A DNA stretch of 64,000 bases, taken from Streptomyces niphimycinicus. Its GTDB lineage: Bacteria; Actinomycetota; Actinomycetes; Streptomycetales; Streptomycetaceae. Shown here piece after piece: positions 5,119 to 33,766 of the stretch; within the stretch, counting starts at the first letter, position 1; each line of letters opens with the position of its first letter. The notes beneath the pieces were generated by a model, which worked only from the letters and a program-made list of their open reading frames with translations, was not told where the DNA came from and made no database searches. The stretch covers positions 1-64,000 of the forward strand of contig NZ_JAHLEM010000032.1 in NCBI RefSeq assembly GCF_018883605.1, in the 5' to 3' direction. A program made the position numbers and the translations under genes.

Positions 5119-5225
5119 CCGCCGCGCCCCCCTGCCGTTACCGCCAAGCCCCTCCTGCCCCGCCTGCCCCTCTTGCCCTCTTGCCCTCCTGCCCCTCTCT
5201 CCTCCGCAGCCGCTGGAGCCGCCCC

Positions 5226-7100: not shown

Positions 7101-8308
7101 TCACCTCTGCCGTCCGTACCCTCGCCACGGAGCTGACCGGCGACGACCTGCCCGCCTACGTCTACGACCTGACCGCGCTCCGCGCCCACGCGCGGGCCGT
7201 ACGGGACGCGCTGCCGCCGGGCCTCGAGCTGTACTACGCCGCGAAGGCCAACCCTGCGCCGCGCATCCTCCAGGCGCTCGCGCCCCATGTCACCGGCTAC
7301 GAGGTGGCCTCCGGCGGCGAGGTGGAGCATGTCCGGGCGGCCGTGCCGGGGGCGCCGCTGGCCTTCGGCGGGCCGGGCAAGACCGAGGGGGAGCTGCGGC
7401 GGGCGCTGACGCTGGGCGTGGAGCGGTTCCATGTGGAGAGCGAGCAGGAGCTGCGGCTGCTGGCCGGGGCGGCACAGGACGCGGGAATCCCGGACGTGGA
7501 CGTCCTCCTGCGCGTCAATCTCCCGGTGGCCGGTGCCGAGCTGGGCGGCGCGGCGCTGGCCATGGGGGGCCGCCCGAGCCCCTTCGGCCTCGACCCCGAG
7601 GCCGTGGAACGCTGCCTTCCGCTGTTCTCGGCGGACTCCGGCAGTCCCCTGCGCCTGCGCCTGTGCGGCATCCATGCCCATCTCGCCAGCGGCCTGGACG
7701 CCCCCGCCCAGGTCGCCGTCGCCGCCGCGATCGCCGACTGGGCGGCGAAGCTGTCCGAACGCCACGGGCTGGGCCTCACCGAGGTGAACGTCGGCGGCGG
7801 GATGGGCGTGGACTACGCCCACCCCGACCGCCGCTTCGACTGGGCCGTCTACGGCCAGGGCATGGCGGACCTCGCCCTCCGCCACCCTGACCTGACCCTG
7901 CGGATCGAGCCCGGCCGGGCGCTGACCGTCTACTGCGGCTGGTACGTCACCGAGGTGCTGGACATCAAGCACAGCGGGGGCGAGGCGTTCGCGGTGGTGC
8001 GCGGTGGCACCCACCACCTCCGTACCCCCGCCACCAAACAGCACGACCAGCCCTTCCAGGTGCTCCCCATGGACACCGGGAACACCTGGACCCGGCCCTG
8101 GCCCCGCCCGGCCGTACGGGCGGAGCCGGTCACGCTGGTCGGCCAGCTCTGCACCCCCAAGGACGTGCTGGCCGGCCGGATCCCGGTCGAGGAGCTACGG
8201 GTCGGGGACCGCGTCGCCTTCGCGCTGGCGGGTGCGTACGCGTGGAACATCTCGCACCACGACTTCCTGATGCACCCCCGGCCGGGCTTCCACTACCTGG
8301 AGGAATGA
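7097..8308 (+). CDS. PLP-dependent decarboxylase, type III fold (PvsE-like)
   Basis: This 403-residue member of the ornithine/diaminopimelate decarboxylase family closes the siderophore operon. It starts at TTG 7097, overlapping the previous stop (TTGA), with GGGAG six bases upstream. The PLP lysine is Lys50 in ELYYAAKANPAP. The phosphate-binding glycine loop is EVNVGGGMGVDYAHPDRRF, and the inter-subunit catalytic cysteine lies in QLCTPKDVLAG. In vibrioferrin and staphyloferrin B pathways a related decarboxylase removes a carboxylate to give the amine building block or a citryl-amino-acid intermediate. Role and substrate are inferred from operon position. No exporter or receptor gene follows. 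Confidence 0.82.
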   Translation: MITSAVRTLATELTGDDLPAYVYDLTALRAHARAVRDALPPGLELYYAAKANPAPRILQALAPHVTGYEVASGGEVEHVRAAVPGAPLAFGGPGKTEGELRRALTLGVERFHVESEQELRLLAGAAQDAGIPDVDVLLRVNLPVAGAELGGAALAMGGRPSPFGLDPEAVERCLPLFSADSGSPLRLRLCGIHAHLASGLDAPAQVAVAAAIADWAAKLSERHGLGLTEVNVGGGMGVDYAHPDRRFDWAVYGQGMADLALRHPDLTLRIEPGRALTVYCGWYVTEVLDIKHSGGEAFAVVRGGTHHLRTPATKQHDQPFQVLPMDTGNTWTRPWPRPAVRAEPVTLVGQLCTPKDVLAGRIPVEELRVGDRVAFALAGAYAWNISHHDFLMHPRPGFHYLEE

Positions 8309-13811: not shown

Positions 13812-14076
13812 GCGGATGCGCTTCCTCCTCTTACCCTTATGTCCTGGTGCTCCCACGTCTTGTACGTCTCGCCGCATCCCGGCACAACTCATCATCGATT
13901 AATGGACAGACGCCGAGGTGGCGGCGGTGGTTGCGCCCCATCGACACCGGCCGCGTTCTCCTAGTATTTTTACCTGAAAGTGCCATAGAGACAGGGGCCT
14001 GCCGTTCCTGTTGGCATTCACTTGTTGTGTGCCCTACCGGGGGTGCGCTCATCTGAGTGACGATTGGAGGCAGGGG
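13812..14076. promoter_or_regulatory. Divergent intergenic region, LacI regulator / methoxymalonyl operon
   Basis: A 265-bp spacer with lower G+C than its surroundings, including AT-rich CTAGTATTTTTACCTG (about 13961-13976) and ATCATCGATTAATGG (about 13890-13905), a plausible operator. A purine-rich GGAGGCAGGGG directly precedes ATG 14077. No coding frame is evident. Exact promoter positions are not clear by eye. Confidence 0.45.
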
Positions 14077-14940
14077 ATGGCGGGTTCCGCATCGGACACG
14101 ATCGCTGTCGTCGGCGCCGGGGTAATGGGACGCAACATCACCGCACTCGCGCTGGGCCGTGGGGCCGATGTCGTGCTGGTCGATGTCTCGGATGAGGTGC
14201 TGGAGAGCGCCCGGGCGGAAATCGCCCAACTGCTGCGGCACGGGCAGTTCATGGGCGCCTTCCCCGACTCCCAGGCCACCGGGACCCTCACCACCACGCT
14301 CTCCAGCGGCGATGTCGCGGGCGCGGATGTGGTGATCGAGGCGATCACCGAGGACGCCGCGCTCAAGGCGCGGGTCATGGCGGAGCTCTCCGGCACGGTC
14401 CCCGCCGGGGTCCCGCTGATCACCAACACCTCGGGAATTCCCATCGCCGAACTGGCGAAGTCGGTGCGGCGGCCCGCCGAACTGGCCGGGGTGCACTTCA
14501 TGAATCCGTCCTATCTCATCGAGATGGTGGAAGTGGTGCGCGGCCCGCAGACCGGCGAGGACGCCATGGCCGCGATCCTGGCCCTGCTGGGCAAGCTGGG
14601 GCGGAAGACCGTCGTCGTGCGGGACGCGCCGGGGTTCGTCACCAGCAGGCTGCTGCACCCCATGATCAATGAGGCGGCGCGCATCGTGGCCGAGGGCACC
14701 GCGAGCGTCGAGGCCGTGGACCAGCTCATGCACGGCTGCCTCGGCCATCCGACCGGCCCGCTGCGCACCGCCGATCTGATCGGACTCGACAATCTCGCGG
14801 ACGCTCTTCGGCTACTCGCCGAGCGGACCGGAAATTCCGCCTTCGAGCCCTGTGAACTTCTGCTGGAGAAGGTGCGCGCCGGTGATCTGGGGCGTAAGAC
14901 AGGGCGCGGGTTCTACAACTATGGAGAGGTGCTTTCGTGA
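14077..14940 (+). CDS. fkbK: 3-Hydroxyacyl-CoA dehydrogenase-like, methoxymalonyl-ACP pathway (FkbK type)
   Basis: This 287-residue NAD-dependent dehydrogenase has the Rossmann motif IAVVGAGVMGRNIT near its N-terminus, NTSGIPIAEL and HFMNPSYLIEMVEVV in the catalytic domain, and FVTSRLLHPMINEA at the C-terminal domain start. In FK520 and ansamitocin clusters the FkbK/Asm13 homologue oxidises the C2 hydroxyl of glyceryl-ACP on the route to methoxymalonyl-ACP. It is the first gene of an unbroken K-J-I-H-G set in the same order as asm13-17. ATG 14077 follows GGAGGCAGGGG. Its stop overlaps the ACP start by 4 bases. Confidence 0.88.
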   Translation: MAGSASDTIAVVGAGVMGRNITALALGRGADVVLVDVSDEVLESARAEIAQLLRHGQFMGAFPDSQATGTLTTTLSSGDVAGADVVIEAITEDAALKARVMAELSGTVPAGVPLITNTSGIPIAELAKSVRRPAELAGVHFMNPSYLIEMVEVVRGPQTGEDAMAAILALLGKLGRKTVVVRDAPGFVTSRLLHPMINEAARIVAEGTASVEAVDQLMHGCLGHPTGPLRTADLIGLDNLADALRLLAERTGNSAFEPCELLLEKVRAGDLGRKTGRGFYNYGEVLS

Positions 14941-15215
14941 GTATGGACCAGGCAGTCACCGCCGAGGCGACCGAGCAGGCGATCACGGCGTTCGTCTCGG
15001 AGCGGGTGAAGGCGGAGGTCCCCGCCGACCAGGACCTCTTCGGGTCCGGGCTGGTGTCGTCGATGTTCGCGATGGAGCTCGTCGTCCATCTGGAACAGGC
15101 ATTCTCCGTGCAGATCCTGGGGGACGACCTCAAGCGGGACAACTTCCGCACCATCGCGGCCATGACCGCTCTGGTGGTGCGGTTGCGCGGCGGCGAGAAG
15201 CCCGCCGATGTCTGA
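14937..15215 (+). CDS. fkbJ: Discrete acyl carrier protein for methoxymalonyl-ACP (FkbJ type)
   Basis: This 92-residue carrier protein starts at a coupled GTG. The phosphopantetheine site is DLFGSGLVSSMFAMEL with Ser42 as attachment site; the usual Asp before it is Ser41. Helix II (FAMELVVHLEQAFSVQI) follows. It would carry the glyceryl unit while FkbK, FkbI and FkbG convert it to methoxymalonyl. It overlaps the next gene by 8 bp. The Asp-to-Ser change in the DSL motif is unusual for PKS ACPs but occurs in FkbJ-type carriers as far as I recall. Confidence 0.88.
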   Translation: MSMDQAVTAEATEQAITAFVSERVKAEVPADQDLFGSGLVSSMFAMELVVHLEQAFSVQILGDDLKRDNFRTIAAMTALVVRLRGGEKPADV

Positions 15216-16317
15216 GCCGCTCGCCGGCGCCCGTGAGATCGTCGACGACCTCGTCGGCGACCGGGCCGCGGAGTGGGACCGCACCGGGCTGATCCCCGAC
15301 GACGTACTGCGCACGCTGTCCGCGCGCGGTCTGCTGTGCGCCGGGGTGCCGGAGGCGTCCGGCGGACTCGGCGCGAGCAGCGCGGCGAACGGCGAGTTCA
15401 CCGCGTTCGTGGGCAGCCGGTGCAGCTCCCTGCGGAGCGTGATGACCTCGCAGGGCATGGCCGCGTGGACCATCCAGCGCCTGGGCAGCGCACAGCAGCA
15501 CGCCGAGTACCTGCCGAAACTGGCCGGGGGTCAGCTCGCCGCCGTCGCGTTCAGCGAGCCGGAGGCGGGCAGCGATCTGTCGGCGATGACCACGACCATC
15601 GAGCAGGACGACGACACCGTCGTCGTCCGCGGCCAGAAGGTCTGGACGACCGCGGCCCACTACGCCGACATGATCGTGGTCGTCGGCCGCTATGGCTCCG
15701 GGGCGGCCGCCGTCGTGGTGCCCGCCTCGGCTCCGGGCGTCACCGTGACCAGGGTGGCGCAGCCGTCCGGCTGCCGGGCCGCGGGTCATGCGAACGTGAC
15801 GCTGGACGAGGTGCGGCTGCCCGCCACCGCCGTGCTCGGCGGTGGACAGCCGCTGATGCTCCTGGTGACCACCGCGCTGGCGTACGGGCGGATCTCGGTC
15901 GCCTGGGGCTGCGTCGGCATCCTCCGGGCCTGCCTCGACGCCGCCCGCGGCCATGCCCGCACCCGGACCCAGTTCGGAAAGCGGCTCGCGGACCACCAGC
16001 TCGTCGCCCGCCATCTGGCGAATCTGCTGACCTCCGAGCAGATCGCCACCCGGGTGTGCGAACACGCCAGCCGGTGCTGGGACCAGGGCTCTCCCGAGAT
16101 GGTCGTGGCCACCGTGCTCGCCAAGCAGGTGGGCGCGGTCCAGGCCGCGCAGGGCGCCGCCACGGCGGTGCAGGTGCTGGGCTCGGCGGCGGCCCACGAG
16201 GGCCATGTGGTCGAGCGCGCGTACCGCGACGCGAAACTCATGGAACTCATCGAGGGCAGTACGGAGATCTGTGAGCTGATCCTCGCCGACCACGCCGTAT
16301 CGATGCCCGCGACATGA
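15208..16317 (+). CDS. fkbI: Acyl-CoA dehydrogenase-like, methoxymalonyl-ACP pathway (FkbI type)
   Basis: This 369-residue flavin acyl dehydrogenase contains LAAVAFSEPEAGSDLSAMTT, which contacts substrate and FAD, and TRTQFGKRLADHQLVARHLA. The C-terminal MELIEGSTEICELILADH has the family EGSTEI segment. FkbI homologues oxidise the ACP-bound hydroxymalonate intermediate. The start overlaps the ACP gene by 8 bp. Size and motifs are intact; the assignment rests on the conserved gene order as well. Confidence 0.88.
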   Translation: MSEPLAGAREIVDDLVGDRAAEWDRTGLIPDDVLRTLSARGLLCAGVPEASGGLGASSAANGEFTAFVGSRCSSLRSVMTSQGMAAWTIQRLGSAQQHAEYLPKLAGGQLAAVAFSEPEAGSDLSAMTTTIEQDDDTVVVRGQKVWTTAAHYADMIVVVGRYGSGAAAVVVPASAPGVTVTRVAQPSGCRAAGHANVTLDEVRLPATAVLGGGQPLMLLVTTALAYGRISVAWGCVGILRACLDAARGHARTRTQFGKRLADHQLVARHLANLLTSEQIATRVCEHASRCWDQGSPEMVVATVLAKQVGAVQAAQGAATAVQVLGSAAAHEGHVVERAYRDAKLMELIEGSTEICELILADHAVSMPAT

Positions 16318-16344: not shown

Positions 16345-17421
<1,077 letters not shown>

Positions 17422-17492: not shown

Positions 17493-18170
17493 ATGGCGAA
17501 CCAGGTAGGTCTCCCGGCCGCGCTCTCGGAGTACATCCGGGAGGTCTCCCTGCGGGAGGACGCGGTCCTGCGGGAGCTGCGCGAGACGACGGCGCAGCTT
17601 CCCGCGGGCACCGCGATGCAGGTCATGGCCGAGGAGGGCCAGCTTCTGACACTGCTGGCCGGACTCACCCCGGCGAACAGGATCCTGGAGATCGGCACGT
17701 TCACCGGGTACAGCACCCTGTGCCTGGCCCGTGCCCTCGCGCCCGGCGGACGGCTCATCACCTGTGACATCACCGACCGCTGGGCGAGCATCGGCGCCGA
17801 CTACTGGGCCAGGGCGGGCGTCGAGGGGCGGATCGACCTGCGGGTCGGTGACGCGACCGACACCCTCGAGGCCATCCTCGCGGAGGAGGGCCCCGGCACC
17901 TTCGACTTCGTGTTCATCGACGCCGACAAGCAGGGCTATCCGCACTACTACGAGATGGCGCTGACGCTCCTCGGCGACCGCGGCCTGATCGTGGTCGACA
18001 ACACCCTGTTCTTCGGCAAGGTGGTGGATCCCGAGGCACAGGACGTCGACACCGCCGGGATCCGGGCGTTCAACAAGCTGGTCCATGACGATCCGCGGGT
18101 GGAGATGTCGCTGGTCCCGATGGCGGACGGCATCACGCTGATCCGCAAGAAATCGCCCGCGGGTGCGTGA
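17493..18170 (+). CDS. fkbG: O-methyltransferase, methoxymalonyl-ACP pathway (FkbG type)
   Basis: This 225-residue class I SAM methyltransferase is of the catechol-O-methyltransferase type. SAM motif I is ILEIGTFTGYSTLCLARALA, the metal-binding acidic segment is FDFVFIDADKQGYPHYYE, and LIVVDNTLFFGKVVDP follows. FkbG methylates the C2 hydroxyl of the ACP-bound hydroxymalonyl intermediate to give methoxymalonyl-ACP. It closes the five-gene set and is followed by a strong hairpin at 18177-18226. A 71-bp gap separates it from fkbH, with GAGAAG upstream of the start. Confidence 0.9.
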   Translation: MANQVGLPAALSEYIREVSLREDAVLRELRETTAQLPAGTAMQVMAEEGQLLTLLAGLTPANRILEIGTFTGYSTLCLARALAPGGRLITCDITDRWASIGADYWARAGVEGRIDLRVGDATDTLEAILAEEGPGTFDFVFIDADKQGYPHYYEMALTLLGDRGLIVVDNTLFFGKVVDPEAQDVDTAGIRAFNKLVHDDPRVEMSLVPMADGITLIRKKSPAGA

Positions 18171-18176
18171 GCGGAG

Positions 18177-18226
18177 CGACGGCTGAGGCGGGCCGGGGCA
18201 TCGGCTCCGGTCCGCCTCAGCCGTCG
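18177..18226. terminator. Bidirectional hairpin terminator between fkbG and the CMD-fusion gene
   Basis: A perfect 15-bp stem, CGACGGCTGAGGCGG (18177-18191) pairing with CCGCCTCAGCCGTCG (18212-18226) around a 20-base loop, lies between two convergent stop codons. No T-run follows, as is usual in Streptomyces. Confidence 0.85.
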
Positions 18227-18252: not shown

Positions 18253-19545
18253 TCAGGTGACCACCCTCGGTATGTACGCCGCGTGGGCCCCGTCGGAGAA
18301 GCGGCGCAGTTCGACGCCGTACACCTCGGCGGGGCGGAGCTGCTGGCCGAGAAACGAGATGACCCGGTTGAATTCGGGCGGGAATTGACTGGCCACAATG
18401 ACCATACGGAGCCTGCCCAGGGCCAGATTCCCCTCGATCGTACGCAGGAACGAGCCCTGGTCGATCGGATAGCCCATCTCCGCCAGCAAACCATCCGCGT
18501 CGGTGTCCTGCAATTGCGCGGTGTAGTCGAGCGAGCGCTGGAGTATGTGGAGCGGCCAGTGCCGGGCCCCGCTGCCCGCGTAGTCGAGAATTTTCGACAG
18601 GGCGCTGTGCGCGTTCCAGGTGTCGTGCGGTTCCACCACTTCGGCGAGAATCGGCACACCCGTGGAATCGGCGAACAGATGGGTGGCGCTGAAGGAGTAG
18701 CCGTCCGTGTCCGGCATGATGTCCGAGGAGTTCCGGCGGATCAGCAGGAGCGGCGAGCCGGACTCGCGGGCCTGCGCGGCCGTGGACATCAGGTCCGGAT
18801 AGCGGACGAGGATCTCATGAAGTGGCGGCTCCGGGTGGGCCGCCGAGGGCGTGAGCTGCGAGAGCCCGCTGTCGTTCTGGAGCACGATGCGCCGGTTCCA
18901 GGTCTCGGCGCCCGATCCCGGAAGCGACTCGCGCGGGCGGGCGTGCCTGCCGGAGGACAGTTGCCCCGGGTCCACCGGCAGCAGCGCCGGACGCTCCATC
19001 CAGTTGTCGACCGGGACCAGGCAGGAATTGAGGATGAAGGCCAGGGTTTTGTAGGTTCCGGCCAGCGCCAGCAGTTCGAGGATCTGCTCCTCGCTGTACT
19101 GCTCGGCGAGCTGCTTCCAAGTGCTGTCCGAGATCGCCGACTTGGTGTGCAGCTCGTCGACCGCCGCGAGGAGGGCGGCCTCGAAGGGCGTCCAGCCGGT
19201 GGCGTCCTCCGAGGCGGCGCGGGCGATCTCCGTCTCGGTCAGCCCGACGAAGAGCCCCGCGGCATGGTGATGCGCCCAGACGTACGTGGCCTGTGAACGC
19301 CAGGCCGTCCGCAGGATGACCAGCTCGCGCTCGCGCGGCGGGAGGATGTCGCCCGCCACATGAGACATCAGCGGCTGCATCGCGGGCAGCAGCGTCGGGT
19401 GGTTGGCGATGGTCCGGTGGACGTTCGGCGGCGGCCGGTCCGCGAGGATCCCGTTCAATGACCGGCTGACCTCCTGGAGGTAGACCTGGCCGGCCGGTGT
19501 GACGGCGAAGTCGTCCGCGTCCTGCGGATCGATCCTGGGCCGCAT
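18253..19545 (-). CDS. Carboxymuconolactone-decarboxylase-like domain fused to a degenerate nuclease-like domain
   Basis: This 430-residue two-domain protein lies inside the polyketide cluster. Residues about 15-185 are AhpD/carboxymuconolactone-decarboxylase-like (LPPRERELVILRTAWRSQAT, YVWAHHHAAGLFVGLTETEI), with Trp/His in place of the redox Cys pair. Residues about 245-430 resemble the PD-(D/E)XK NucS-like family of actinomycete proteins (HLFADSTGVPILAEVVEPHD, LDYAGSGARHWP, LGRLRMVIVASQFPPEFNRV, ISFLGQQLRPAEVYGVELRR). In that family I expect LVEVK at the active site; here it is LAEVV, so the catalytic Lys is lost. It starts at ATG 19545 after GAGGG and is divergent from the PKS. Function unknown; it may bind rather than cut. 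Confidence 0.75.
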   Translation of the reverse strand: MRPRIDPQDADDFAVTPAGQVYLQEVSRSLNGILADRPPPNVHRTIANHPTLLPAMQPLMSHVAGDILPPRERELVILRTAWRSQATYVWAHHHAAGLFVGLTETEIARAASEDATGWTPFEAALLAAVDELHTKSAISDSTWKQLAEQYSEEQILELLALAGTYKTLAFILNSCLVPVDNWMERPALLPVDPGQLSSGRHARPRESLPGSGAETWNRRIVLQNDSGLSQLTPSAAHPEPPLHEILVRYPDLMSTAAQARESGSPLLLIRRNSSDIMPDTDGYSFSATHLFADSTGVPILAEVVEPHDTWNAHSALSKILDYAGSGARHWPLHILQRSLDYTAQLQDTDADGLLAEMGYPIDQGSFLRTIEGNLALGRLRMVIVASQFPPEFNRVISFLGQQLRPAEVYGVELRRFSDGAHAAYIPRVVT

Positions 19546-19956
19546 TTCCTCACCCTCGCGCTTGTGTTGTCACGTCGGCGTCTCGACGGACGCGCTGTCG
19601 GCTGTCGGGCAGCGGGCAGCTTGACGTTCGGCAGCTCTTTTCGGCCGACCCCGCCCAACGATAGGCGATCGTACGGACTTTCAAACACCGGAGCTCTAGG
19701 TGAATTTCCAGCAACCTTCGCATGCCTAAGGTGGTGGCAATGACACGGAATGCATCCATGGCAGGGAAAAAGTGCGACGAATAGCCCAAAGAGAGTGACA
19801 CCGTGCGCCGGAGCCGCAGGGATTTCTGCCGACCATACATGTACTATTTCGCACATTGTTGATCACGACTTGAACGGCAGTCCGGTGCCGCCGGATTCGC
19901 GGAGACCCGGCGTGTGCCAGCACTTGCCTCTCCTGCCGAGCCCGTGAGGACGACGA
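19546..19956. promoter_or_regulatory. 411-bp divergent control region, CMD-fusion gene / PKS
   Basis: A long spacer with clear AT-rich patches (for example near 19675-19700 and 19835-19875), no convincing coding frame, and divergent genes on both sides. Both cluster promoters probably lie here. A half-match to an iron box (CATGCCTAAGG near 19721) is not convincing. Just before the PKS starts, GAGGA precedes GTG 19957 by 6 bases and GGGGGAG precedes GTG 19972 by 6 bases. Confidence 0.5.
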
Positions 19957-22900
19957 GTGGGGGAGCGCACAGTGAGCCGACCTGAGTCCATATCCGCCGG
20001 CCGAATCCAGCCGCGGGACGCGGCCATCGCGGTAGTGGGGGTGTCCTGCCGACTGCCGTCCGCGCAGGATCCCGCGCGCTTCTGGCAGTTGCTGACCGGC
20101 GGGCAGAGCGCGGTGTCACAGGTGCCGCCGGGCCGCTGGAGCGACGACGGGGCGGCGGACTCCGGCGAGACCGGGTGGGGCGCCTTCCTGGACGAAGTCG
20201 ACCGTTTCGACCCCGAGTTCTTCGGGATCTCGCCGCGTGAGGCGCGGGCGATGGACCCACAGCAGCGGCTCGCGCTGGAGCTGGGCTGGGAGGTCCTGGA
20301 GGACGCGGGCGTCCTGCCGGCCGAGGTACGTGGCCAGGACACCGGCGTGTTCATCGGTGTGACCGCGGACGACTACGGCGTACTGGACCGGCGCAGGGGA
20401 CCCGCGGCCATCGCGCATCACACCCTGACCGGACTGAACCGCAGTGTGATCGCGAACCGGGTGTCCTACTTCCTGGGCCTGCGCGGGCCGAGCCTGGTGG
20501 TGGACACCGGACAGTCGTCGTCGCTGGTCGCGGTGCATCTGGCCTGCGAGAGCCTGCGGCGCGGGGAGTCGGCCACGGCACTGGCCGGCGGTGTCCAGCT
20601 CAACCTGGTGCGCGACAGCGCGCTGGCGGCGGCCCGGCTCGGCGCACTGTCCCCGGACGGCCGCTGCTTCACCTTCGACGAGCGCGCCAACGGATACGTC
20701 CGTGGCGAGGGCGCGGGGATGGTGCTGCTCAAGCCACTGGCGAGCGCGCTGGCCGACGGGGACGAGATCATTTGCGTCATCGAGGGCAGTGCGGTGGGCA
20801 ACGACGGCCCGGGCGCGGCCCTGACCACCCCCGATCCCGAGGGGCAGGGCGCGGTGCTGGCGGCGGCGTGCCGACGTGCGGGCGTCGACCCGGCGGCGGT
20901 CCAGTATGTGGAGCTGCACGGGACCGGCACCCGGGTGGGCGATCCGGTGGAGGCGGCGGCGCTCGGCGCGGTGTACGGAGCCGACCGTGCCGCGGACAGC
21001 CCCCTGCTGGTCGGCTCGGCGAAGACCAACGTGGGCCATCTGGAGGGCGCCGCGGGCATCGTGGGCCTCCTGAAGGTCGTGCTGTCGCTGCGGAACGGCG
21101 AGCTTCCGGCCAGCCTGAACTTCGAACACCCCAATCCGCGGATCCGCTTCGACGAGTGGCATCTGGACGTGGTCTCGGCGACCCGCCCATGGCCCTACCG
21201 CGACGGCCGCGCCCTGGCCGGAGTGTCGTCGTTCGGCATGGGCGGCACCAACTGCCATCTGGTGGTGTCCGCCACCGAGCCGGCCGACATGGGTTCGGAA
21301 GCGGCGGACGGCTCTCCGGTGGCGGGTGGCGCCGTGCCGTGGCCGCTGTCGGGCCGGACCCGGGACGCGCTGCGCGCGCAGGCCGCCCGCCTCGCCGCCC
21401 ATCTGACGGAGCACGAGCGGCTCGATCCGGTGGGCGTGGGCTTCTCCCTGGCCACCACCCGAACCGCGTTCGACCACCGTGCCGTCGTCCTCGCACCGGA
21501 CCGGCCTAAGGCCCTGGGCGCGCTGGCGGCACTGGCCGACGGCGAGTCCGCACCGGGCGTGGTGCGGGGAGTGGCCGACGTCGAGGGCCGGACGGTGTTC
21601 GTCTTCCCCGGCCAGGGTTCCCAATGGGCGGGCATGGGCGTCCGGTTGATGGCCGAGTCCCCGGTCTTCGCCGAGCGGTTGGCCGAATGCGCCGCCGCGC
21701 TCGCGCCCCATGTGGACTGGTCGCTGGCCGACGTGCTGCGACAGGCCGAGGGCGCCCCGTCGCTGGAACGGGTCGATGTGGTCCAGCCCGCCTCCTGGGC
21801 GGTGATGGTCTCTCTCGCGGCGGTGTGGCGGGCGCACGGGGTGGTCCCGGACGCGGTGCTGGGCCATTCGCAGGGCGAGATCGCGGCGGCGTGCGTGGCC
21901 GGTGCGCTGTCGCTCGAGGACGCGGCCCGCGTGGTGGCGCTGCGCAGCCAGGCCATCGCGCGCCGCCTCTCGGGGGCGGGCGGCATGCTGTCGGTGGCGC
22001 TGCCGCGCGCCGAGGCCGAGGCACGGCTGGGCCGCTGGGACGGCCGGGTGTCGATCGCGGCGGTGAACGGGCCCGGCTCGGTGGTGGTCTCCGGCGAACT
22101 GGCGGCGCTGGACGAGCTGCTGAAGGAACTCGCGGGCGCGGATGTGCGGGTGCGGCGGATCGCGGTGGACTACGCGTCGCACTCGGCGCAGGTGGAGCGG
22201 GTGCGTGAGGAGCTGTCGGCCGCGTTGGAGGGCATCGCCCCGCGCCGGGCCGACGTGCCGTTCTTCTCCACGGTGACCGGCGAGTGGCTGGACACCACCG
22301 GCATGGACGCCGGGTACTGGTACCGCAATCTGCGGCAGACCGTCGCCTTCGAACCGGCCGTCCGGGCGCTGCTCGGCCAGGGTCACCGGGCGTTCGTCGA
22401 GGTCAGCTCCCACCCGGTGCTGACCTCCGCGGTGCAGGAGGCCATCGACGCGGCCGACGTCCGGGCGCTCGCCGTCGGCACACTGCGGCGCGAACTGGGC
22501 GGGATGGACCGGTTCCTGAGCTGTCTGGCCGAGGCGTACGTGCGCGGGGTGCCGGTCGACTGGGCGCGGTCGTTCGCCGGGGCCGACGCCCGTCGGGTGG
22601 CCCTGCCGACGTATGGATTCCAGCGGGAGCGGTACTGGCTGCCGGAGCCCGCCGGGGGCGGCGCGGTGCCGGATGCCGTTCCGGCGGCCGTAGCGGAACA
22701 CGTCACCGACCCGGAACCGGAGTCGGAACCCGAGCCGGAGCGTGCGGAATCCGGCGCCTCGTGGACCCGCCCCGACCTGGGACGCCTGGTGCGCACGGAG
22801 ACCGCGGTCGTGCTGGGATTCGCCTCCGCGGAGCGGGTGAACCCGGCCCGGTCGTTCAAGGAGCTGGGCTTCGACTCGGCGATGACGGTGGAACTGGCGA

Positions 22901-25900
22901 CCCGGCTGAAGGCCGCGACCGGGCTGCGGGTGCCCAACACCGTGCTGTTCGACCATCCCACGCCCGACGCCTGCGCCGACCATCTGGCCACGGAACTCAC
23001 CACCCCGCCGACCGGCGACGCGTCCCCGGCGCCCCACGCCGTCCCGGCGGACGACCCGGTGGTCATCGTGGGCATGGCCTGCCGCTACCCGGGCGGCGTG
23101 AACTCGCCCGAGGGACTGTGGGACCTGGTGTCGGGCGAAGTCGACGCCGTCTCCGACCTGCCCGCCGACCGGGGATGGGCGCCCGAGCCGGCGGCCACCG
23201 GCAGGGCGGGCGGATTCCTCTACGACGCGGACCGTTTCGACGCGACGCTGTTCGGGATCTCGCCGCGTGAGGCGGCAGCCATGGACCCCCAGCAGCGGCT
23301 GGCGCTGGAGATGAGCTGGGAGGCGGTCGAACGGGCCGAGATCGCCCCGTCGTCCCTGCACGGCAGCCGCACCGGCGTGTTCATGGGCGCGATGGCCCAG
23401 GACTACGGTCCGCGGCTCAAGGACGGCTCCGGCGCCGCGGAGGGATATCTGCTCACCGGCACCTCGCCGAGCGTGCTGTCCGGCCGGATCGCCTACGCCC
23501 TGGGGCTGCGCGGACCCGCGCTGACCGTCGACACGGCGTGCTCGTCGTCGCTGGTGGCGATGCACCTGGCGGCGCAGGCGCTGCGCAATGGCGAGTGCGC
23601 TCTGGCGCTCGCCGGTGGTGTCACCGTCATGTCGGAGCCCGGCATCTTCGTGGAGTTCGCCCGGCAGGGCGGCCTGTCGCCCGACGGCCGCTGCAAGGCG
23701 TACGCGGAGGCGGCGGACGGCACCGGCTGGTCCGAGGGCGTGGGCGTCCTGGTGCTGGAACGGCTCTCGGACGCGACCCGGGCCGGTCACCGGGTGCTGG
23801 CCGTCCTGCGCGGCTCCGCGGTCAACTCCGACGGCGCGTCGAACGGTCTGACCGCGCCCAGCGGAATCGCGCAGCGGCAGGTGATCGGCCAGGCCCTGGC
23901 CGGCGCCGGACTGACCCCGTCGGACGTGGACGCGGTGGAGGGGCACGGCACCGGCACCCGGCTGGGCGACCCGATCGAGGCCCAGGCGCTGCTCGCCGCC
24001 TACGGACAGGACCGGGACCCGGACCGCCCGCTGCTGCTGGGGTCGCTCAAGTCCAACATCGGGCATACGCAGGCCGCCGCCGGTGTCGCGGGCGTCATCA
24101 AGATGATCCTGGCGATACGGCACGGTGTACTGCCGCGCACCTTGCATGTCGACGCGCCGTCGTCGCAGGTGGACTGGTCGGCCGGGGCGGTGGAGCTGCT
24201 CACCGGGCCCACCCTGTGGCCACCGGCCGAGCGGCCCCGCCGCGCGGGCGTGTCATCGTTCGGGATCAGCGGCACCAACGCGCATGTGATCATCGAGCAG
24301 CCACCGCGGGACCGTACCGAGGAGACCGCCGAGCGGCCCTCGGGCGCGCCGCCGTCGCAGGCCGGGCCGCGGTCGCAGACCGGGCCGGACGTGGTGCCGG
24401 AGGTGGTGCCATGGCCGGTGTCGGCTCGTGGCGAGGCGGCGCTTGAGGCGCAACTGGAGCGGCTGGCCGCGTTCGTGGCCGACACCGGCGCGGCGGCGGC
24501 CGACATCGGCTACTCGCTGGCGACGACCCGCTCCGAGCTGGAGCATCGAGCGGTCCTCCTGGCCGCCACGGACCGTACATCAGACGGCGACGCGCGGCCC
24601 GACGCGCGGCCCGTGAAGGTGGCCGAGGGCATGGCGGGCGACCCCGGCCCGCTGGCGCTGCTCTTCGCCGGTCAGGGCGCCCAGCGGCTGGGCATGGGAC
24701 GCGAACTGCACGGCCGGTTCCCGGTGTTCGCGGCGGCGTGGGACGAGATCTGCGCGCTGCTGGACGGCGAGCTGGAACGGCCGCTGCGCGAGGCGGTGTT
24801 CGGCGACGACGCGGAGCTGCTGAACCGCACCGAGTACGCCCAGCCCGCGCTGTTCGCCCTGGAAGTGGCCCTCTACCGGCTGGTGGAGTCATGGGGGACG
24901 GCACCGGATCTGCTGCTCGGGCATTCGGTCGGCGAGATCGCGGCGGCCCATGTGGCCGGAGTGCTGTCCCTGCCCGACGCGTGCACCCTCGTCGCCGCCC
25001 GCGGCCGGCTGATGCAGGCGCTGCCCGAGGGCGGCGCCATGGTCGCGCTGCGGGCCACCGAGGACGAGGTGGCGGCGCTGCTCACCGGCGCCGAGGACCG
25101 CGTGGGCCTCGCCGCGGTCAACGGCCCCGAGGCGGTGGTGGTGTCCGGGGCGGCCGACGCGGTCGAGGCCATCGCGGACCGGTTCGCGGCCGACGGCCGC
25201 AAGGCCACCCGGCTGCGGGTCAGCCACGCCTTCCACTCCCCGCTGATGGCACCGATGCTGGACGGCTTCCGCGCGGTCGTGGAGGGCTTGGCCTTCGGCG
25301 AGCCGCGCATCCCGATCGTCTCGACCGTCACCGGCGAGCGGATCGCCGCGGAGCGGATCCGTACCCCCGACTACTGGGTGCGGCACGTCAGGATGACGGT
25401 GCGGTTCGCCGACGCGGTCGGCGCCGCGGCGCGGGCCGGTGCGCACACCTTCCTCGAACTGGGCCCGGACGCCACCCTGTCGGTGCTGGCGCAGGACGCC
25501 CTGCCCGATGCGGTAGGTGTGGAGGCCGTGCCGCTGCTGGGCAAGGACCGCGGCGAGGAATCCACCGCGCTTGCGGCGGCGGCCCGGCTGTATGTGCGGG
25601 GCGTACCGGTCCGGTGGGCCGAACTGTTCACCGGGACCGGCGCGCGCCGGGTCGCGCTGCCCACCTACGCGTTCCAGCGGGAGCGGTACTGGACCGCGCC
25701 CATCGGCAACACCTCGGCGGGCGCGGTCCCGGCCGGGCTCGGCGGCGTGGACCATCCGCTGCTCGGCGCGGTCGTGGAGCTGCCCGAGACCGGTGGTCTG
25801 CTGTGCACCGGTCTGCTGTCGGTGGCGGCGCAGCCGTGGCTGGCCGACCATGTGGTGGCCGGGCGCGTGACCTTCCCCGGCGCCGGATTCATCGAGCTGG

Positions 25901-28900
25901 CGGTGCGCGCGGGCGACGAGGTCGGCTGTGGTCTCATCGAGGAACTCACCCTGGACGCGCCGCTGGTGCTGCCCGGGCAGGACGACGACGGCGTACGGAT
26001 CCAGGTCGCGCTCGGCGGCCCCGGCGACGGCGGCCGGCGCACCCTGGCCATCTACGCGCGGCCCGCCGACACGCCGGACGCGCCCTGGACGCGGCACGCC
26101 ACCGGCACACTCGCGCCGGGCACGCCCGGTACCGGTGCCGATGTCGGTGCCGCGTCGGCGTGGCCGCCCGCCGACGCCGTACCCGTCGACCTCGATGACT
26201 TCCACGAGCGGCGGCGCGAGGCCGGGCTCGCCCACGGGCCGTCGTTCCGGGCCGTCCGGGCGGTCTGGCGGGCCGGGGACGAGGTGCTGGCCGAGGTCGT
26301 CCTCCCCGAGCACCTCGCCGACGAGGCCGATGCCTTCCGCCTCCATCCCGCGCTGCTGGACGCCGCGCTGCACATCGCGTCGTCGGCAGGGCCGGACGAC
26401 GGGCGGTCGGCGCCCGCTCGCTCGGAGGTGTCGACCTGGTCCGGGGTGTCCCTGCACGCCGTGGGCGCGTCGGTGCTGCGGGTGCGGCTGCGCGCCACGG
26501 GCGAGGACACGGTCACACTCGGCGCGGTGGACACCGAGGGCCATCCGGTGGTGTCGGCGCGCACGCTGACGCTGCGTACGCCGGACGTCCACACCTCGGA
26601 GGCCATGGCGTCGCGGCCACTGCTGCGCCTGGACTGGCTGCCCGCCCCGGTGCCGGACACCAGTGGGCACGGCGACCCCGTGAGCGCCGGGGAGGCGCTG
26701 CTGGTCGCGGTCGCCGCGCCGGACGGTGTGCCGGTGCCGGAGGCGGTCCGTATCGTCACCGCGTCCGTGCTCGACACGCTGCGGCACCACCTGAACGACG
26801 ACGACACGGATGGGACCGGCGGGAGTCGGCCCGCCCGGGTGGTGTTCGTGACCCGTGGCGCGGTGGCCACGACCCCCGACACGGCCCCTGACGCGGTGGC
26901 GGCCGCGGTGTGGGGGCTGGTGCGGTCGGCCCGGCAGGAGAGCCCCGACCGGTTCGTCCTGCTCGATCTGGACCCCGCGGAGACCGGGGATCCGGTGTCG
27001 GCCGCCGCCGGGACCCTCCGCGCGGCGCTGGACTGCGACGAGCCCGAACTGGCCGTGCGCGCCGGGGAGTTGCTGATCCCTCGGCTGGCTTCCGTCGGCG
27101 CCCCGGACCCGTCCGCGCCGGGCACCGTATGGGGCGGTGACGGCACCGTGCTGATCACCGGCGGTCTGGGCGGTCTCGGCGCGCTGATGGCCCGGCACCT
27201 GGTCGCCGCGCACGGGGTGCGCCATCTGGTGCTGGCCGGTCGTCGCGGCGCCGACACCGAGGGCGCGGACGCGCTGGTGGCCGAGCTGACCGGGCAGGGC
27301 GCGCGGGTGACCGCCGCCGCCTGCGATGTCTCCGACCGCGCGGCCGTGGCCGCCCTGCTGGCGGCGATCCCGGCCGAACACCCGCTGACCGGTGTGGTGC
27401 ACGCCGCCGGTGTGCTGGACGACGGGTTGATCGGGGCGCTGACCCCGGACCGGCTGGACACGGTGTTCCGCCCGAAACTGGACGGCGCCTGGCATCTGCA
27501 TGAGCTGACGCGTGACCACGGCCTGACCGCCTTCGTGGTGTTCTCCTCGGTGTTCGGCGTCCTCGGCAACGCGGGCCAGGCCGCCTACACCGCCGCCAAC
27601 GCGTTCCTGGACGCGCTGGCGCGGCGGCGGACCGCGGAGGGGCTCGCGGGTCTGTCCATCGGCTGGGGGCTCTGGCCGCGGAGCGGCGGTATGTCCGCCG
27701 GGCTGAGCGCCGCGCAGCTTCGCAGGATCGCCGCGGCCGGGCTGCCGACGCTCACCGTCGAGGAGGGGCTGGCCTGCTTCGATGCCGCGGCTGCGGTGGG
27801 CGAGGCGTCCCTCGTCGCCACCCGCGTCGACCGGGCCGCCCTGCGGGCGCGTGACACCGTGCCCGCCGTCCTGCGCGGCCTGGTCCCGGTCGGCGCCGTC
27901 CGCCGGGCCGCCGCCACCGGTGGCGGCTCCGGTCCGACGGCCGGTCCGCTGACCGGGCTGACGGCCGACCGGGCCCGGGACACCCTGCTCCAGCTCGTCC
28001 GTGAGCAGGTGGGTGCGGTGCTCGGGCTCGCGGGTCCGGCGGCGGCCGGGGGCGGGCGGACGTTCAAGGACATGGGCTTCGATTCCCTGACCGCCGGTCA
28101 GTTGCGCAACAGCCTGCGCAAGCGGACCGGCCTGAGCCTGCCCTCGACCCTGATCTACGACCATCCGACACCGGAGGCCCTCGCCGGTCATCTGTGGGCC
28201 GAGCTGGGCGGCGAGGCCGACGAGCGGCGGGGGAGCGCCGCACCGGCCGCGATCACGGCGGGCGGTCCGGCAGCCGGGATGGGCGATCCGGAGCCGATCG
28301 CGATCATCGGAATGAGCTGCCGTTTTCCCGGCGGGGTGCGTTCGCCCGAGCAACTGTGGGAGTTGCTGACCGAGGGCACGGACGCCATCTCCCCGCTGCC
28401 CGCCGACCGTGGCTGGGACGCGGGCGCGTACCACCCCGACCCGGAGCGGACGGGCACGACGTACTCGGCGGCGGGTGGCTTTGTCGACGGCGTGGGCGAG
28501 TTCGACGCGGCGTTCTTCGGCATCTCCCCGCGTGAGGCGGTCTCGATGGACCCGCAGCAGCGGATGCTGCTGGAGCTGACCTGGGAGGCGTTCGAACGCG
28601 CCGGGATCGACCCCGCGTCCCTGCGGTCCAGCATGACCGGCACGTTCGTCTCGGCGACCGCCCAGAGTTACGGCACGGGGGTGTCGGCGGACTCCGACGG
28701 CTACCAGCTCACCGGCACGCTCCCCAGCGTGCTCTCGGGCCGTCTGGCCTATCTGTTCGACCTCCACGGGCCGACCGTGACGGTGGACACCGCCTGTTCG
28801 GCGTCCCTGGTCGCGCTGCATATGGCGTGCCAGTCGCTGCGCTCGGGGGAGAGCACCCTGGCCCTGGCGGGTGGTGCCACCGTGCTGACCGGCCCGGACC

Positions 28901-31900
28901 TGCTGGTCTCGCTGAGCAGGCACCGGGTGATGGCGCCCGATGGGCGGAGCAAGGCGTTCGCCGAGTCGGCGGACGGCATGGGCATCGCGGAGGGCGCCGG
29001 TCTCCTCGTGCTGGAGCGGCTCTCGGACGCGGTCCGCAACGGCCACCAGGTGCTGGCGGTCGTCCGCGGGTCGGCGGTGAACTCCGACGGCGCCTCCAAC
29101 GGGCTCACCGCGCCGAGCGGGCCCGCGCAGCAGCGGGTCATCCGGCAGGCCCTGGCCAACAGCGGTCTCGCGGCGTCCGACGTCGACGTGGTCGAGGCAC
29201 ACGGCACCGGCACCGCACTGGGCGATCCGATCGAAGCACACGCGCTGCTGGCCACCTACGGCCAGGACCGGGGCGACAGCCCGCCGCTGCTGGTCGGCTC
29301 GGTCAAGTCCAACATCGGGCACACACAGGTGGCCGCCGGTGTCGCGGGCGTCATCAAGATGGTGATGGCGCTGCGCCACGGCCAACTGCCGAAGACCCTG
29401 CACGCCGCCGAGCCGTCCTCCCGTATCGCCTGGGACTCGGGCGCGGTCGAGCTGCTGACCGAGGCGGCACCGTGGCCCGAGCTCGGCCGTCCGCGGCGGG
29501 CCGCGGTCTCCGCGTTCGGCATGAGCGGGACCAACGCCCACGCCGTACTGGAGCAGGCCCCGGCGCCCACCGGTCCGGTCCCGGATCCGGTGACCTCCCC
29601 GGTCCCGGACCCGGTGACCTCCCCGGTCCCGGACCCGGTGACCTCCCCGGTCCCGGATCCGGAGTGGGACGGGCCGGTGGCCTGGCCGCTGGCGGGCAAG
29701 TCGGCCGCGGCGCTGCGCGCCCAGGCCGCGAAACTGCTCGCACATCTGGACGCCCACCCGGGGGCGCGCCCGGTGGACATCGGGCATTCCCTGGCCACGA
29801 CCCGTGCCGCCTTCGAGCATCGGGCGGTGCTGGTCGGCCAGGACCCCGTGGCACTGCGCGGCGGCCTGGCGGCCCTGGCCGAGGGCAGCTCGGATCCCGC
29901 GGCGGTGCGCGGCACGGCGCCCGAGCGCGGCCCGGTGGTCTTCGTCTTTCCCGGACAGGACGCGGCATGGGCCCGGATGGCGGCCGAACTGCTCGATGTC
30001 TCGCCCGTCTTCGCCGCGCGCGTCGCCGACTGCGAGGCGGCCCTGGCCCCGTATCTCGACTGGTCGCCCACCGATGTGCTCCGCGGTGAGCCCGGCGCGC
30101 CGCCGATCGAGCGGCGCCCCGATGTGCTCCAGCCCGTGCTGTGGACGGTCATGGTCTCGCTCGCCGCGCTGTGGCGCTCGTTCGGCGTCGAACCCGCCGC
30201 CGTCGTCGGCCACTCCCAGGGCGAGGTGGCCGCCGCCTGCGTCAGCGGCGGCCTGTCGCTGGACGACGGCGCCCGCGTGGTGGCGCTGCGCAGCCGGCTC
30301 ATCCATGAGCGGCTGTCCGGACGCGGCGCGATGATGTCGGCGATGGCATCGCCGGAACGGATCCGGGAGTTGCTGGACGAGGTGTCCGGCGCGGTGTCCA
30401 TCGCGGCGGTCAACGGACCGAAGACGGTGACGCTCTCCGGCGATCCGGCCGCCCTCGACCAGGTCGAGCGCGGTCTGTCCGCCGCCAGGATCATGCGCTG
30501 GCGGCTGGCCGGGGTGGACTTCGCCGCCCACTCGGCGCATATCGACGAGATCGAGGCCGAGTTGCTGGAGCTGCTGGCTCCGGTGCGGCCCCGGCCGTCG
30601 GAGGTGCCGTTCTACTCCACGGTGACCGGGGGCCGCCTCGACACCGAGAAGCTGGACGCCGAGTACTGGTGCCGGAACCTGCGGCAGACCGTGTCCTACG
30701 CCGAGACGATGACCGGTCTCCTGCGCGAGGGCTACGGCGTCATGATCGAGGTCGGCCCCCATCCGGTGCTCGCCGTCGGCACCAGCGAACTCATCGAGAC
30801 CGCGGGCAGCCCGGCGGTCACCCTGGGCACCCTGCGCCGGGACGACGGCGGCTGGGACCGGGTCCTGCGCTCGCTCGGGGAGGCGCACGCCCACGGCGTG
30901 CCCGTCGACTGGACCAGGGCGCTGCCCGGCGGCCGTACGGTGGACCTGCCCACCTACGCCTTCCAGCACGAGTCGTACTGGATCGCCCCGCCCGCCCCCG
31001 CCACCTCGCCGACCGGCACCGCCGCAGCGGCCGACGAGCCGCTGTGGACCGCCGTGGACCAGGGGGACAGCGCCGCCGTCGCCACGCTGATCGGCCTCGA
31101 ACCCGAGAGCAAGGGCGCGCTCGACTCGGTGCTCCCCGCGCTGTCGGCGTGGCGCAGGCGGCAGGACGAGCACACGCTGGCCGGCCGGCGGCGCTACCGG
31201 ACGGTCTGGACACCCCTGCGCGTTCCCACCGGCCCCGCACTGACCGGAACCTGGCTGGTCCTCACCACCGGCTCCATCGACGACACGGATGTGGTGGCCG
31301 CGCTGACCGCACACGGCGCCCAGGCGCGCCGTGTGGTCCTCGACGGGACCCTTACCGGCCCGGAGGCGATGGCCGCACAGCTCGCCGACGTCGGCCTCGA
31401 CCGGGTGGCCGCAGTGGTGTCGCTGCTCGCGGCGGCCGAGGACACGGAGTGCGGCGAACCCGCGCTGCCCGCCGGTCTGGCCCTCAGCGTGTCGCTGGTC
31501 CAGGCGCTGATGGCGGCCGGGGCCGAGGTGCCGCTGTGGACGGTGACCCGCGGCGCGGTCTCCACCGGCCCGGCCGACCCGGTCCGTAATCCGCGGCAGG
31601 CGATGGTCCTCGGACTCGCCACGACCGCGGCCCTGGAGGCACCGTCGCTGCGCGGCGGCCTGGCCGACCTCCCGGAGCGCCTCGACCCCGAGACGGCAGG
31701 GCGGTTCGCCGCGCTGCTTGCGGCGGAACCGGGGGAGGACCAGGCGGCGGTGCGCCCCTCGGGCGTTCTCGTCCGGCGACTGGTGCGGGCACCGGCCCGA
31801 GCCGACTCGCCCGGCACCTGGGCGCCCCGCGGCACGACCCTGATCACCGGCGGCACCGGCGCGCTGGGCAGCCGGGTCGCCCGATGGCTGGCCCGCCAGG

Positions 31901-33753
31901 GCGCCGAGCACCTGGTGCTGATGAACCGGCGTGGCCTCGAGGCACCGGGCGCGGCCGAACTGGTGGCGGAGCTGACCGCCCGGGGGACGACCGTCGAGGT
32001 GGTGGGGTGCGAGCTGACCGACAGGGCGGCCGTGGCCGACGTACTCGACCGGCTCTCGGCGGACGGCCATCCGGTGCGCGCGGTGGTGCACACGGCCGGG
32101 ACGAGCCCGCTGGGCCCGCTCGACACGGCGAGCCCCGACCACTTCGCCGAGGCGCTGCGTACGAAGGTGGTGGGTGCCGCACACCTCGACCAACTGCTCG
32201 ACGACACCGGCCTGGACGCCTTTGTGCTGTTCTCCTCGATCTCCGGCGTCTGGGGCATCGGCCGGCACGCGGCACAGGCGGCGGCCAACGCGTATCCGGA
32301 AGCGCTGGCATCCCAGCGCCGCGCCCGGGGCGCCCACGCGACCGCGATCGCCTTCAGCCCCTGGGAGGAGGCGCGCGGGCCGATGAGCGAGCACGACCGC
32401 GAGCAACTCCTGCGCAGCGGAATGTCCTTCCTCGACGGCGACCTGGCCCTGGCCGGGCTCGCCCAGGCGCTGCATGAACAGGAGACCGCGCTGACGGTCG
32501 CCGACATCGACTGGGACCGCTATCTCCCCGTCATCACCGAGGCCGCCCCCCGCCCGTTCTTCAGCGAGCTGCCGGAGGCGGCGGGGCTCACCGAGCCCGA
32601 ACCCACCGGCGGACCCGGCGACTTCACCGCACGGCTGCGGAGCCTGCCGCCCGCGGAAGCGCGGCGGCTCCTCCTCGACCTGGTGCGCGGCGAGGCCGCG
32701 GTGGCCCTCGGCCACTCATCCGGCGAGGCCATCGAGGAACACTCCGCCTTCCGCGACCACGGCATGGACTCGCTCGCCGCCATCGACCTGCGCAACCGGC
32801 TCGCCGCCGCGCTGGGCACGACACTGCCCAGCACCGTCGTCCTCACCCATCCCACCCCCGCCGACCTGGCCGGTCATCTCCTCGACCACCTCGCCGCGGC
32901 GCCGACGCGGGACCATGACACCGGCGCGGCCCCGACGACCGACCTGGTCACCCGCCTCCACCGCGACGCCGTGCGGACGGGCCGTAGGAACGAGGCCGAA
33001 ACCCTGCTCCTCGACCTCGCCGCCCTCCGGCCCAAGAGCACCGGGCCCATGCCGTCCACCCTGGACCGGCTCACCACCGGCACCTCGGGCACGCGTCTGG
33101 TGTGCGTGGCCCCCATCGTGCCCCTGACCGGGCCCGACACCTACTTCGCCCTGGCCGGGGCGCTCCCCGACACCTGGGACGTCTCCTGCCTGACGCCACC
33201 CGGCTTCGGCACCGACGAGCCACTGCCCGCCACCCGCGATGCCCTCGTCGAAGGGCTGGCCCAAGCGGTGACCGCGAGCACCACCGACCCCCTGATTCTC
33301 CTGGGCACCTCATCCGGCGGCATCCTCGCTCATGAGACCGCCCGCCGTCTCGCGGACCAGGGGGTGCCCGTACGGGCCGTCATCCTCCTGGACACCTACA
33401 TCCTGGAATCCCCCGCCGCCCTCGCCCTCCAACCCCACCTGTGGCACGGCCTGTACGAGCGCGAGCAGCACACCGACGGCTTCACCGCCACCGACCTGTC
33501 CGCCTACGCCTGGACGGAACGGCTCATCCACACCTGGACCCCCGCGCCCACGCCCTTCCCGACCCTGCTGCTGCGCGCCTCGGACCCGCTCACCGCGGCG
33601 CCCGGGGCGGACCCGGTGCCGCCCGACTGGCAGACGGACCTTCCCCACATCACCACCACCCGCACCACTGAGGGCAATCACTTCACCCTCGTCAACCAGC
33701 ACGCACCCACAGCCGCGGGCCACATCACCGACTGGCTCACCGAACTGGGGTGA
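19957..33753 (+). CDS. Three-module type I polyketide synthase with KSQ loading module and thioesterase
   Basis: This 4598-residue modular PKS has the domain order KSQ-AT-ACP / KS-AT-DH-KR-ACP / KS-AT-KR-ACP-TE. Loading KS (about 22-440) has Gln186 (VDTGQSSS) for Cys; AT1 has YASH at 739-742 (methylmalonyl), giving a propionyl starter. ACP1 Ser974. Module 1: KS Cys1195; AT2 HAFH 1757-1760 (malonyl); DH with His1965 in [10 protein letters not shown] and DAALH 2135-2139; KR with LDD 2487-2489 (B-type), Tyr2544, Asn2548; ACP Ser2710. Module 2: KS Cys2947; AT3 Ser3420 with unusual FAAH 3522-3525; KR keeps Ser4094 and Asn4111 but has Gln4107 for Tyr; ACP Ser4272. TE: Ser4452, Asp4479, His4575. Predicted product: 2-methoxy-3-oxohept-4-enoate if AT3 uses methoxymalonyl-ACP. 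GTG 19972 is an alternative start. Confidence 0.93.
29575..29664 (+). repeat. 24-bp tandem repeat, 3.75 copies, in the PKS KS-AT linker
   Basis: The unit begins CCGGTCCCGGAYCCGGTGAC and repeats from 29575, 29599, 29623 and 29647. It codes PVPDPVTS three times then PVPDPE, lengthening the linker between KS and AT of module 2. In-frame, seen directly. Confidence 0.95.
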
Positions 33754-33766
33754 ACGGCCTCTCCGG

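Follow-up and report, generated by a model that had tools for sequence, protein, structure and literature searches.

Gene organisation of the locus

The window, the whole stretch of DNA analysed here, comprises 64,000 nucleotides of the genome of Streptomyces niphimycinicus. An open reading frame with an ATG start on its minus strand (18253..19545) encodes a CMD-pseudonuclease fusion protein of 430 aa. The protein was recognised by the ORF call, a PF02627 match and a profile match of its C-terminal half, and 12 distinct full-length fusions are available, including that of the window. On one side of this gene, the plus strand carries genes for an fkbK-like 3-hydroxyacyl-CoA dehydrogenase (14011..14940, PF02737/PF00725), an fkbJ-like acyl carrier protein (14937..15215), an fkbI-like acyl-CoA/ACP dehydrogenase (15208..16317, PF00441), an FkbH domain protein (16345..17421, TIGR01686, 375.9 bits against a cutoff of 146.65) and an fkbG-like O-methyltransferase (17493..18170, PF01596). 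FkbH, the acyl-ACP dehydrogenase, the 3-hydroxyacyl dehydrogenase and the O-methyltransferase of a methoxymalonyl-ACP gene set are all present as judged by Pfam and TIGR01686. The fkbJ-like gene was assigned by its size and position, with an ORF at this place in 12/12 loci. It encodes 92 aa, lies where a free acyl carrier protein is expected and has no Pfam match at 1e-6, so that its name is putative. On the other side, the plus strand carries a gene for a three-module polyketide synthase (PKS; 19957..33753). The position of the fusion gene between the methoxymalonyl genes and the PKS, as described in an earlier note on this DNA, is confirmed, with fkbG on one side and the PKS on the other. 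It converges with fkbG and diverges from the PKS gene, from which a gap of 411 bp separates it. Between fkbG and the fusion gene, a hairpin with 23-nt arms of 91% complementarity and a 4-nt loop (18177..18226, not assigned to a strand) is perhaps a terminator; it was absent from the output of a terminator scan, which requires a T run.

The PKS has 4598 aa with three KS, three AT, three ACP, one DH and two KR domains and a TE, arranged as KSQ-AT-ACP / KS-AT-DH-KR-ACP / KS-AT-KR(dead)-ACP-TE. The first KS carries Gln instead of Cys (DTGQSSS), which is the mark of a decarboxylating loading domain. The second ketoreductase (KR2; 31822..32391, plus strand) has Gln at the position of the catalytic Tyr (Q4107), a site placed by an ungapped alignment with the first KR, where the Tyr is present. 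KR2 of the window keeps the GGTGALG motif, and it may be of the epimerase-only type. The catalytic Tyr is missing from KR2 in 8/8 clusters read (the window, L067-L071, L100 and L101; the L102 sequence did not cover the site), being replaced by Gln in seven and by Leu in one. Due to the missing Tyr, a beta-keto product is predicted. From the AT motifs and the fkb genes, with the use of methoxymalonate by AT3 read from the fkb genes, we infer that the product would be 2-methoxy-3-oxo-heptenoic acid, or a cyclised or decarboxylated form of it.

The two domains of the fusion protein

The N-terminal domain (residues 39-186; 18988..19431, minus strand), which is decarboxylase-like (CMD), matches PF02627 over residues 60-128 with an E value of 9.2e-8 and 32.4 bits against a gathering cutoff of 23. 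A full-length model built from 7 close homologs, poor at a pLDDT of 47, still found the AhpD fold by Foldseek (2gmy, E 9.8e-4). Both results bear out the earlier assignment of this half as CMD-like. Alignment in AhpD register places the active-site segment at residues 74-94 (19264..19326, minus strand), in which the Glu/His relay is retained as E74 and H93 and the Cys positions are occupied by A86 and V89. AhpD alkylhydroperoxidases are recognised by a CxxC pair together with the Glu and His relay, and this Cys pair is missing here. The absence of redox cysteines had been pointed out before and is true, but it is ordinary for this CMD subfamily, since 17/17 standalone CMD relatives also lack the CxxC pair in the alignment. 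The telling change is at position 89, which is Val or Ile in 12/12 fusions and Glu in 16/17 standalone CMD rows; Glu89 is a feature of the subfamily and lies outside the Pfam model PF02627. E74, Y88, W90 and H93 are retained in 12/12 fusions.

In a tree of 46 CMD rows (42 different), midpoint-rooted for drawing and with long branches elsewhere, all 15 fusion rows fall into a single clade (95/99), which groups with eight other CMD rows at 84/94. Within this neighbouring clade, examined apart from L096 and L097, five rows are fused to a metallo-beta-lactamase-fold hydrolase and one (L031) lies directly behind such a gene; the hydrolase was tested by Pfam for L032/L061 and recognised by motif and visible likeness in the other four fused rows. 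These hydrolase-CMD fusions of about 500 aa (L061:9396-10907; also L094, L095, L098 and L099) were observed in several genomes of the same family. The neighbouring clade (L031, L032, L094, L095, L098, L099) has E74, Y88, W90 and H93 in common with the fusion, to which two measured members (L060, L061) are 48-50% identical. The partner is a hydrolase in the former and a pseudonuclease in the latter, which also differs by Val or Ile at position 89. PcaL-type hydrolase-CMD fusions of the beta-ketoadipate pathway also join a CMD domain to a second domain, but there the partner is an active alpha/beta hydrolase.

A variable linker (residues 187-216; 18898..18987, minus strand), in which 12/30 positions are invariant, leads to the C-terminal domain (residues 217-430; 18256..18897, minus strand). 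The latter is a degenerate NucS-like PD-(D/E)XK domain by homology in both search directions and by model and fold match. A profile of 7 fusions found a standalone nuclease-like protein encoded by a different genome of the genus (E 6.5e-29), and the reciprocal search with that protein found the window (E 6.0e-26, 28% identity). Intact relatives occur in actinobacterial genomes and on three viral contigs (L013, L014, L057). The C-terminal half of the fusion has no match in Pfam or NCBIfam. In Pfam, the best score of the domain was to a glycosyltransferase model in 2/7 members (best E 0.03), which we take for chance, as we do the weak matches of the domain and of the intact relative P0002 among sequences of solved structures. 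P0002 likewise has no Pfam match, and NCBIfam contains no match for P0002 or for the proteins of L013 and L014. These three do match the PADLOC candidate defence family PDC-S11 (E 1.1e-9, 1.1e-12 and 3.4e-17, respectively), and the fusion (P0001) does not.

A model of the C-terminal domain, built from ten sequences of which three are viral intact relatives, reached a pLDDT of 79.3 and a pTM of 0.78. The best VIA match was NucS (2vld, Z 8.1), followed at Z 7.9 by the Hachiman protein HamA (8vxy) and EndoMS (5gke), although by the tool's own note a best Z of 7-8 can occur by chance. Nucleases or nuclease-like proteins fill the first 13 rows (Z 8.1 to 5.2), two of which are XisH rows that we take to be nuclease-like, and the first unrelated row is a dehydrogenase at rank 14 (Z 5.2). 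Foldseek gave weak matches, with 5gke as the best (E 0.061). Since the VIA and Foldseek scores are weak, the fold assignment also draws on the D...EVK pattern that the homologous family shows. On this basis, we consider the model-based assignment of a NucS-like PD-(D/E)XK fold to be sound. A fold unrelated to nucleases, which the earlier note had named as the result that would speak against it, was not found among the folds listed by VIA for this model. The fold is shared with the mismatch endonuclease NucS/EndoMS at 3.1 A over 105 residues (2vld) and 3.5 A over 110 residues (5gke). On the other hand, neither the fusion nor the intact relative P0002 matches a NucS/EndoMS family model, and the fusion has lost the Asp and the Lys. 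In NucS, the nuclease half presumably follows a NucS N-terminal domain, a place that the AhpD-fold domain takes in the fusion. A plain NucS annotation was rejected because of the missing family match (Pfam, NCBIfam) and the lost active site. Homology over the whole domain, at 22-28% identity, is found to an unnamed NucS-like PD-(D/E)XK family (L012-L017, L034-L038, L040, L057), which is weakly like PADLOC PDC-S11 and, in the members tested, without a Pfam or NCBIfam match.

The alignment to these relatives shows how the active site was changed. The standalone rows carry Glu at position 302, Lys at 304, Arg at 305 and Gln at 318 (14/14 rows, representing 12 places as L012=L046 and L016=L025), and Asp at 288 in 12/14, the remaining two rows being one frameshifted locus (L016/L025). 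The fusions carry T288, E302, V304, E305 and K318 (12/12), so that only the Glu of the catalytic D/E/K is left. The motifs D...EVKR and QMLDYA of the relatives thus stand against T...EVVE and KILDYA in the fusion. The cleft of the fusion lacks Lys304, Arg305 and the RIRR run of the relatives and has gained K318. The motif reads LAEVV in the window, (L/V/I)VEVV in six homologs and EVK in 14/14 standalone rows. The earlier observation of LAEVV in place of an expected LVEVK is therefore real and extends to 12 distinct fusions. Its reading of this half as a dead, NucS-like PD-(D/E)XK domain holds as well, with NucS/EndoMS among the best solved matches and Asp and Lys lost in 12/12. An intact site elsewhere in the domain, which that note had named as a second counter-argument, stands differently: no intact D...EXK set is seen, but possible substitutes are a Lys at a shifted position (K318) and newly acquired acidic residues.

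The replaced active-site strand EVVEPHDTWN (residues 302-311; 18613..18642, minus strand) is invariant in 12/12 fusions, and its EVVEPHD part occurs in three further fusion rows. Among the invariant runs of the protein, only GTYKTLAFILNS in the CMD half is longer. MPDTDGY (277-283) is likewise invariant in 12/12 fusions, as are D279, D281, E302, E305, H307 and D308. The 12 distinct fusions are 73-99% identical, so this invariance is in part due to shared descent. Median pairwise dN/dS is 0.23 for the CMD domain (66 pairs), 0.37 for the linker (65 pairs) and 0.28 for the C-terminal domain (66 pairs). The C-terminal domain is not decaying, and both domains are under purifying selection. As the change from EVK to EVV is common to 12 distinct fusions and the C-terminal domain has this low dN/dS, it is not a sequencing error.

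Distribution and conserved gene neighbourhood

Full-length fusions were found at 6 loci of the genome collection, and a profile of the C-terminal domain found a full-length fusion in 2/150 relatives. Genome searches, each of which included the own genome and which used overlapping sets, detected the fusion in 6/392 genomes of the genus, in 4/200 of the family (the own genome and three of one other genus) and in 1/394 of the class (the own genome). In the genus, 45 genomes had any match at 1e-20, the other 39 of which matched with one half only. For each genome, these searches scored only the top candidates of an initial pass (4 for genus and class, 8 for the family), and absence is hence not absolute. 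The named hosts, which are soil bacteria, belong to Streptomyces (sp. S465, violaceusniger, samsunensis, sp. RPT161) and Streptantibioticus (ferralitis, rubrisoli).

The earlier note had asked whether such fusions track the fkb and PKS genes, and they do: all 12 distinct fusions adjoin fkbK, J, I and H and the same three-module PKS. Two loci that closely resemble each other, L004 and L059, gave no fkbG match beside the fusion; here the gene is missing between the fusion gene and fkbH (L004 11287-11419, L059 16413-16476). In these loci hydroxymalonyl may replace methoxymalonyl, or the methyltransferase may be encoded elsewhere. The PKS thioesterase was found at an identity of at least 78% in the same 6/392 genus genomes as the fusion; the other matches listed have 38-42%.

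The surroundings of these genes are not shared. Window genes outside the fkbK-PKS stretch occur only in the nearest relatives G628, G055 and G409, and a few upstream ones only in G628. Neither G604 and G342 nor the flanks read at other loci contain them, except for a 26-27% MFS match (L101). Comparing all flanks with each other gave matches only between near relatives, plus two weak ones (31% between L062 and L082, 45% between L076 and L078). The ORF filter used for the flanks missed some genes, including the MMPL gene of the window, and the upstream stretches of L007, L064 and L065 extend about 2 kb or less. Lineages have only weak single flank matches in common, so that conservation of a further tailoring gene, transporter or regulator is not seen. 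Thus, the conserved unit in the loci read consists of seven genes (fkbK, J, I, H, G, the fusion gene and the PKS gene), and as the flanks differ between lineages, the fusion gene alone among the conserved genes has no role assigned to it. Beside the PKS, the window carries an MMPL transporter, a histidine kinase with a response regulator, an FAD monooxygenase and an MFS transporter (33754-41071); the MMPL, two-component, FAD monooxygenase and MFS genes were dropped as cluster members because they were seen only in the flanks of G628, G055 and G409. Further away, genes for an ATP-grasp protein, two IucA/IucC-type synthetases and a PLP decarboxylase (1151-8308) form a siderophore-type cluster, and one ORF (44132-45235) joins a methyltransferase domain to a NUDIX domain.

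Methoxymalonyl-ACP gene sets of the fkbG-K type are known from FK506, geldanamycin and galbonolide. The cassette resembles them in its gene set and in the FkbH subfamily match, and we know of no CMD-pseudonuclease gene in these three sets. For galbonolide, galGHIJK and gbnH-K gene sets are described, and its cluster is reported from two strains of similar kind (PMC11074319, PMC11463028). The galbonolide cluster was considered for its use of galGHIJK and set aside by its description, as its core is reported to be galABCDE (PMC11074319, PMC11463028), compared with a single PKS of 4598 aa here. A CMD-family gene is listed in an uncharacterised Streptomyces cluster (PMC11195616). In the open-licence literature searched (CMD with methoxymalonyl PKS, CMD in Streptomyces clusters, violaceusniger/triketide, pseudo-nucleases), we did not find a CMD-pseudonuclease fusion described. 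New here are the co-occurrence with the cassette in 12/12 loci, the coincidence with the thioesterase in 6/392 genomes, KR2 without Tyr, the hydrolase-linked kin of the CMD domain and the invariant replaced strand.

Possible roles of the fusion protein

Our preferred reading, which we hold tentatively, is that the fusion is an accessory protein of the PKS, in which the CMD pocket would handle the released beta-keto product and the dead nuclease domain would be a rebuilt binding module. The protein would then be a dedicated core part of the seven-gene cassette. The PKS is predicted to join a propionate starter with malonate and methoxymalonate (hydroxymalonate where fkbG is missing). The resulting chain would be 2-methoxy-3-oxo-hept-4-enoyl, from which the thioesterase would free a labile beta-keto acid. 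The CMD domain, with the pair E74/H93 in a changed pocket (V/I89, W82, H92, H94), might decarboxylate, cyclise, tautomerise or hold this product. The nuclease domain would have lost DNA cutting, and its old cleft, apparently rebuilt (T288, E302, V304, E305, H307, D308, W310, N311, K318), is a putative binding site for substrate, a carrier protein or a partner. The mode of working may resemble that of other hydrolase-CMD partner fusions, with the pseudo-nuclease as the partner. This reading draws on the co-occurrence of the genes, the unshared flanks, KR2 without Tyr, the retained E74/Y88/W90/H93, the hydrolase-CMD kin, purifying selection and the invariant run at the dead site. A role in processing of the product, proposed by the earlier note, thereby gains circumstantial support from KR2, the CMD relatives and the co-occurrence. 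On the other hand, the loss of Glu89 means that the CMD domain may be dead too, the beta-keto acid may be able to decarboxylate unaided, and the gene is transcribed away from the PKS, as a regulator gene would be.

The main rival, although unlikely, is a cassette-specific regulator, in which the dead nuclease domain would still bind the DNA that separates the fusion gene from the PKS gene, and product sensing by the CMD domain would make the protein a ligand-gated switch built from two dead enzymes. The divergent orientation to the PKS across the 411-bp gap would suit it, as would a nuclease fold that is kept without its catalytic residues and the fact that no other regulator is seen conserved in the cassette. 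The gap of the window contains one imperfect palindrome (19704-19741, 73% complementary), but it sits in a poorly conserved stretch, and no palindrome or motif is common to the gaps. Of the 12 gaps, 10 lack palindromes with exact 7-base arms; L063 and L064 have one each, and these two differ. No 14-mer of the window's gap occurs before fkbK in more than 3/11 loci with up to 2 mismatches, and a crude scan near the fusion gene showed no sigma-70-like promoter pattern. The loss of Lys304, Arg305 and the RIRR run from the cleft also argues against DNA binding, though K318 was gained. Overall charge was uninformative: apart from the frameshifted L016/L025, the intact relatives are acidic, and so are the fusions. 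Regulation, also suggested by the earlier note, is thus consistent with the divergent arrangement and lacks a shared operator among the gaps. Rather improbable as well is a double pseudoenzyme, which would be a functional unit of a new type: a polyketide-binding CMD pocket coupled to a dead, rebuilt nuclease domain of a defence-like family. It would either switch the PKS in response to the product or catalyse a reaction from a wholly new active site in the former nuclease cleft.

AhpD-fold proteins are oligomers, and it seems rather improbable, though conceivable, that the fusion is a scaffold or chaperone without chemistry, with an oligomerising CMD domain and a dead nuclease domain that docks the PKS or the extender-loaded ACP. 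Both domains have lost polar residues typical of their families, and the invariant segments could be interfaces. However, E74 and H93 are kept in 12/12 fusions and would be needless for a pure scaffold; moreover, we know of no need for such a scaffold in other fkb-type PKS clusters, which also counts against it. We strongly doubt that the C-terminal domain is an enzyme, perhaps a hydrolase or nuclease, with a new or shifted active site (K318 or D279, D281, E305, H307): K318 is invariant where the relatives have Gln (14/14), and D279, D281, E302, E305, D308 and H307 are invariant in the 12 fusions, but Asp288 is replaced by Thr and Lys304 by Val in 12/12. Most improbable is self-protection, likewise suggested by the earlier note, by binding or sequestering the product or by mimicking its target, for which it can be said that no transporter or resistance gene is seen conserved in the cassette.

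Seven genes that stay together in differing genomic surroundings should yield a small polyketide, and one of them, encoding a chimera, is without an assigned role. If it is true that the dead nuclease serves biosynthesis or its control, this would be a clear case of recruitment of a nuclease fold into natural-product chemistry. Intact nuclease relatives are at hand for comparison with the dead domain, and the small size of the cassette would allow its transfer as a whole into a laboratory Streptomyces.
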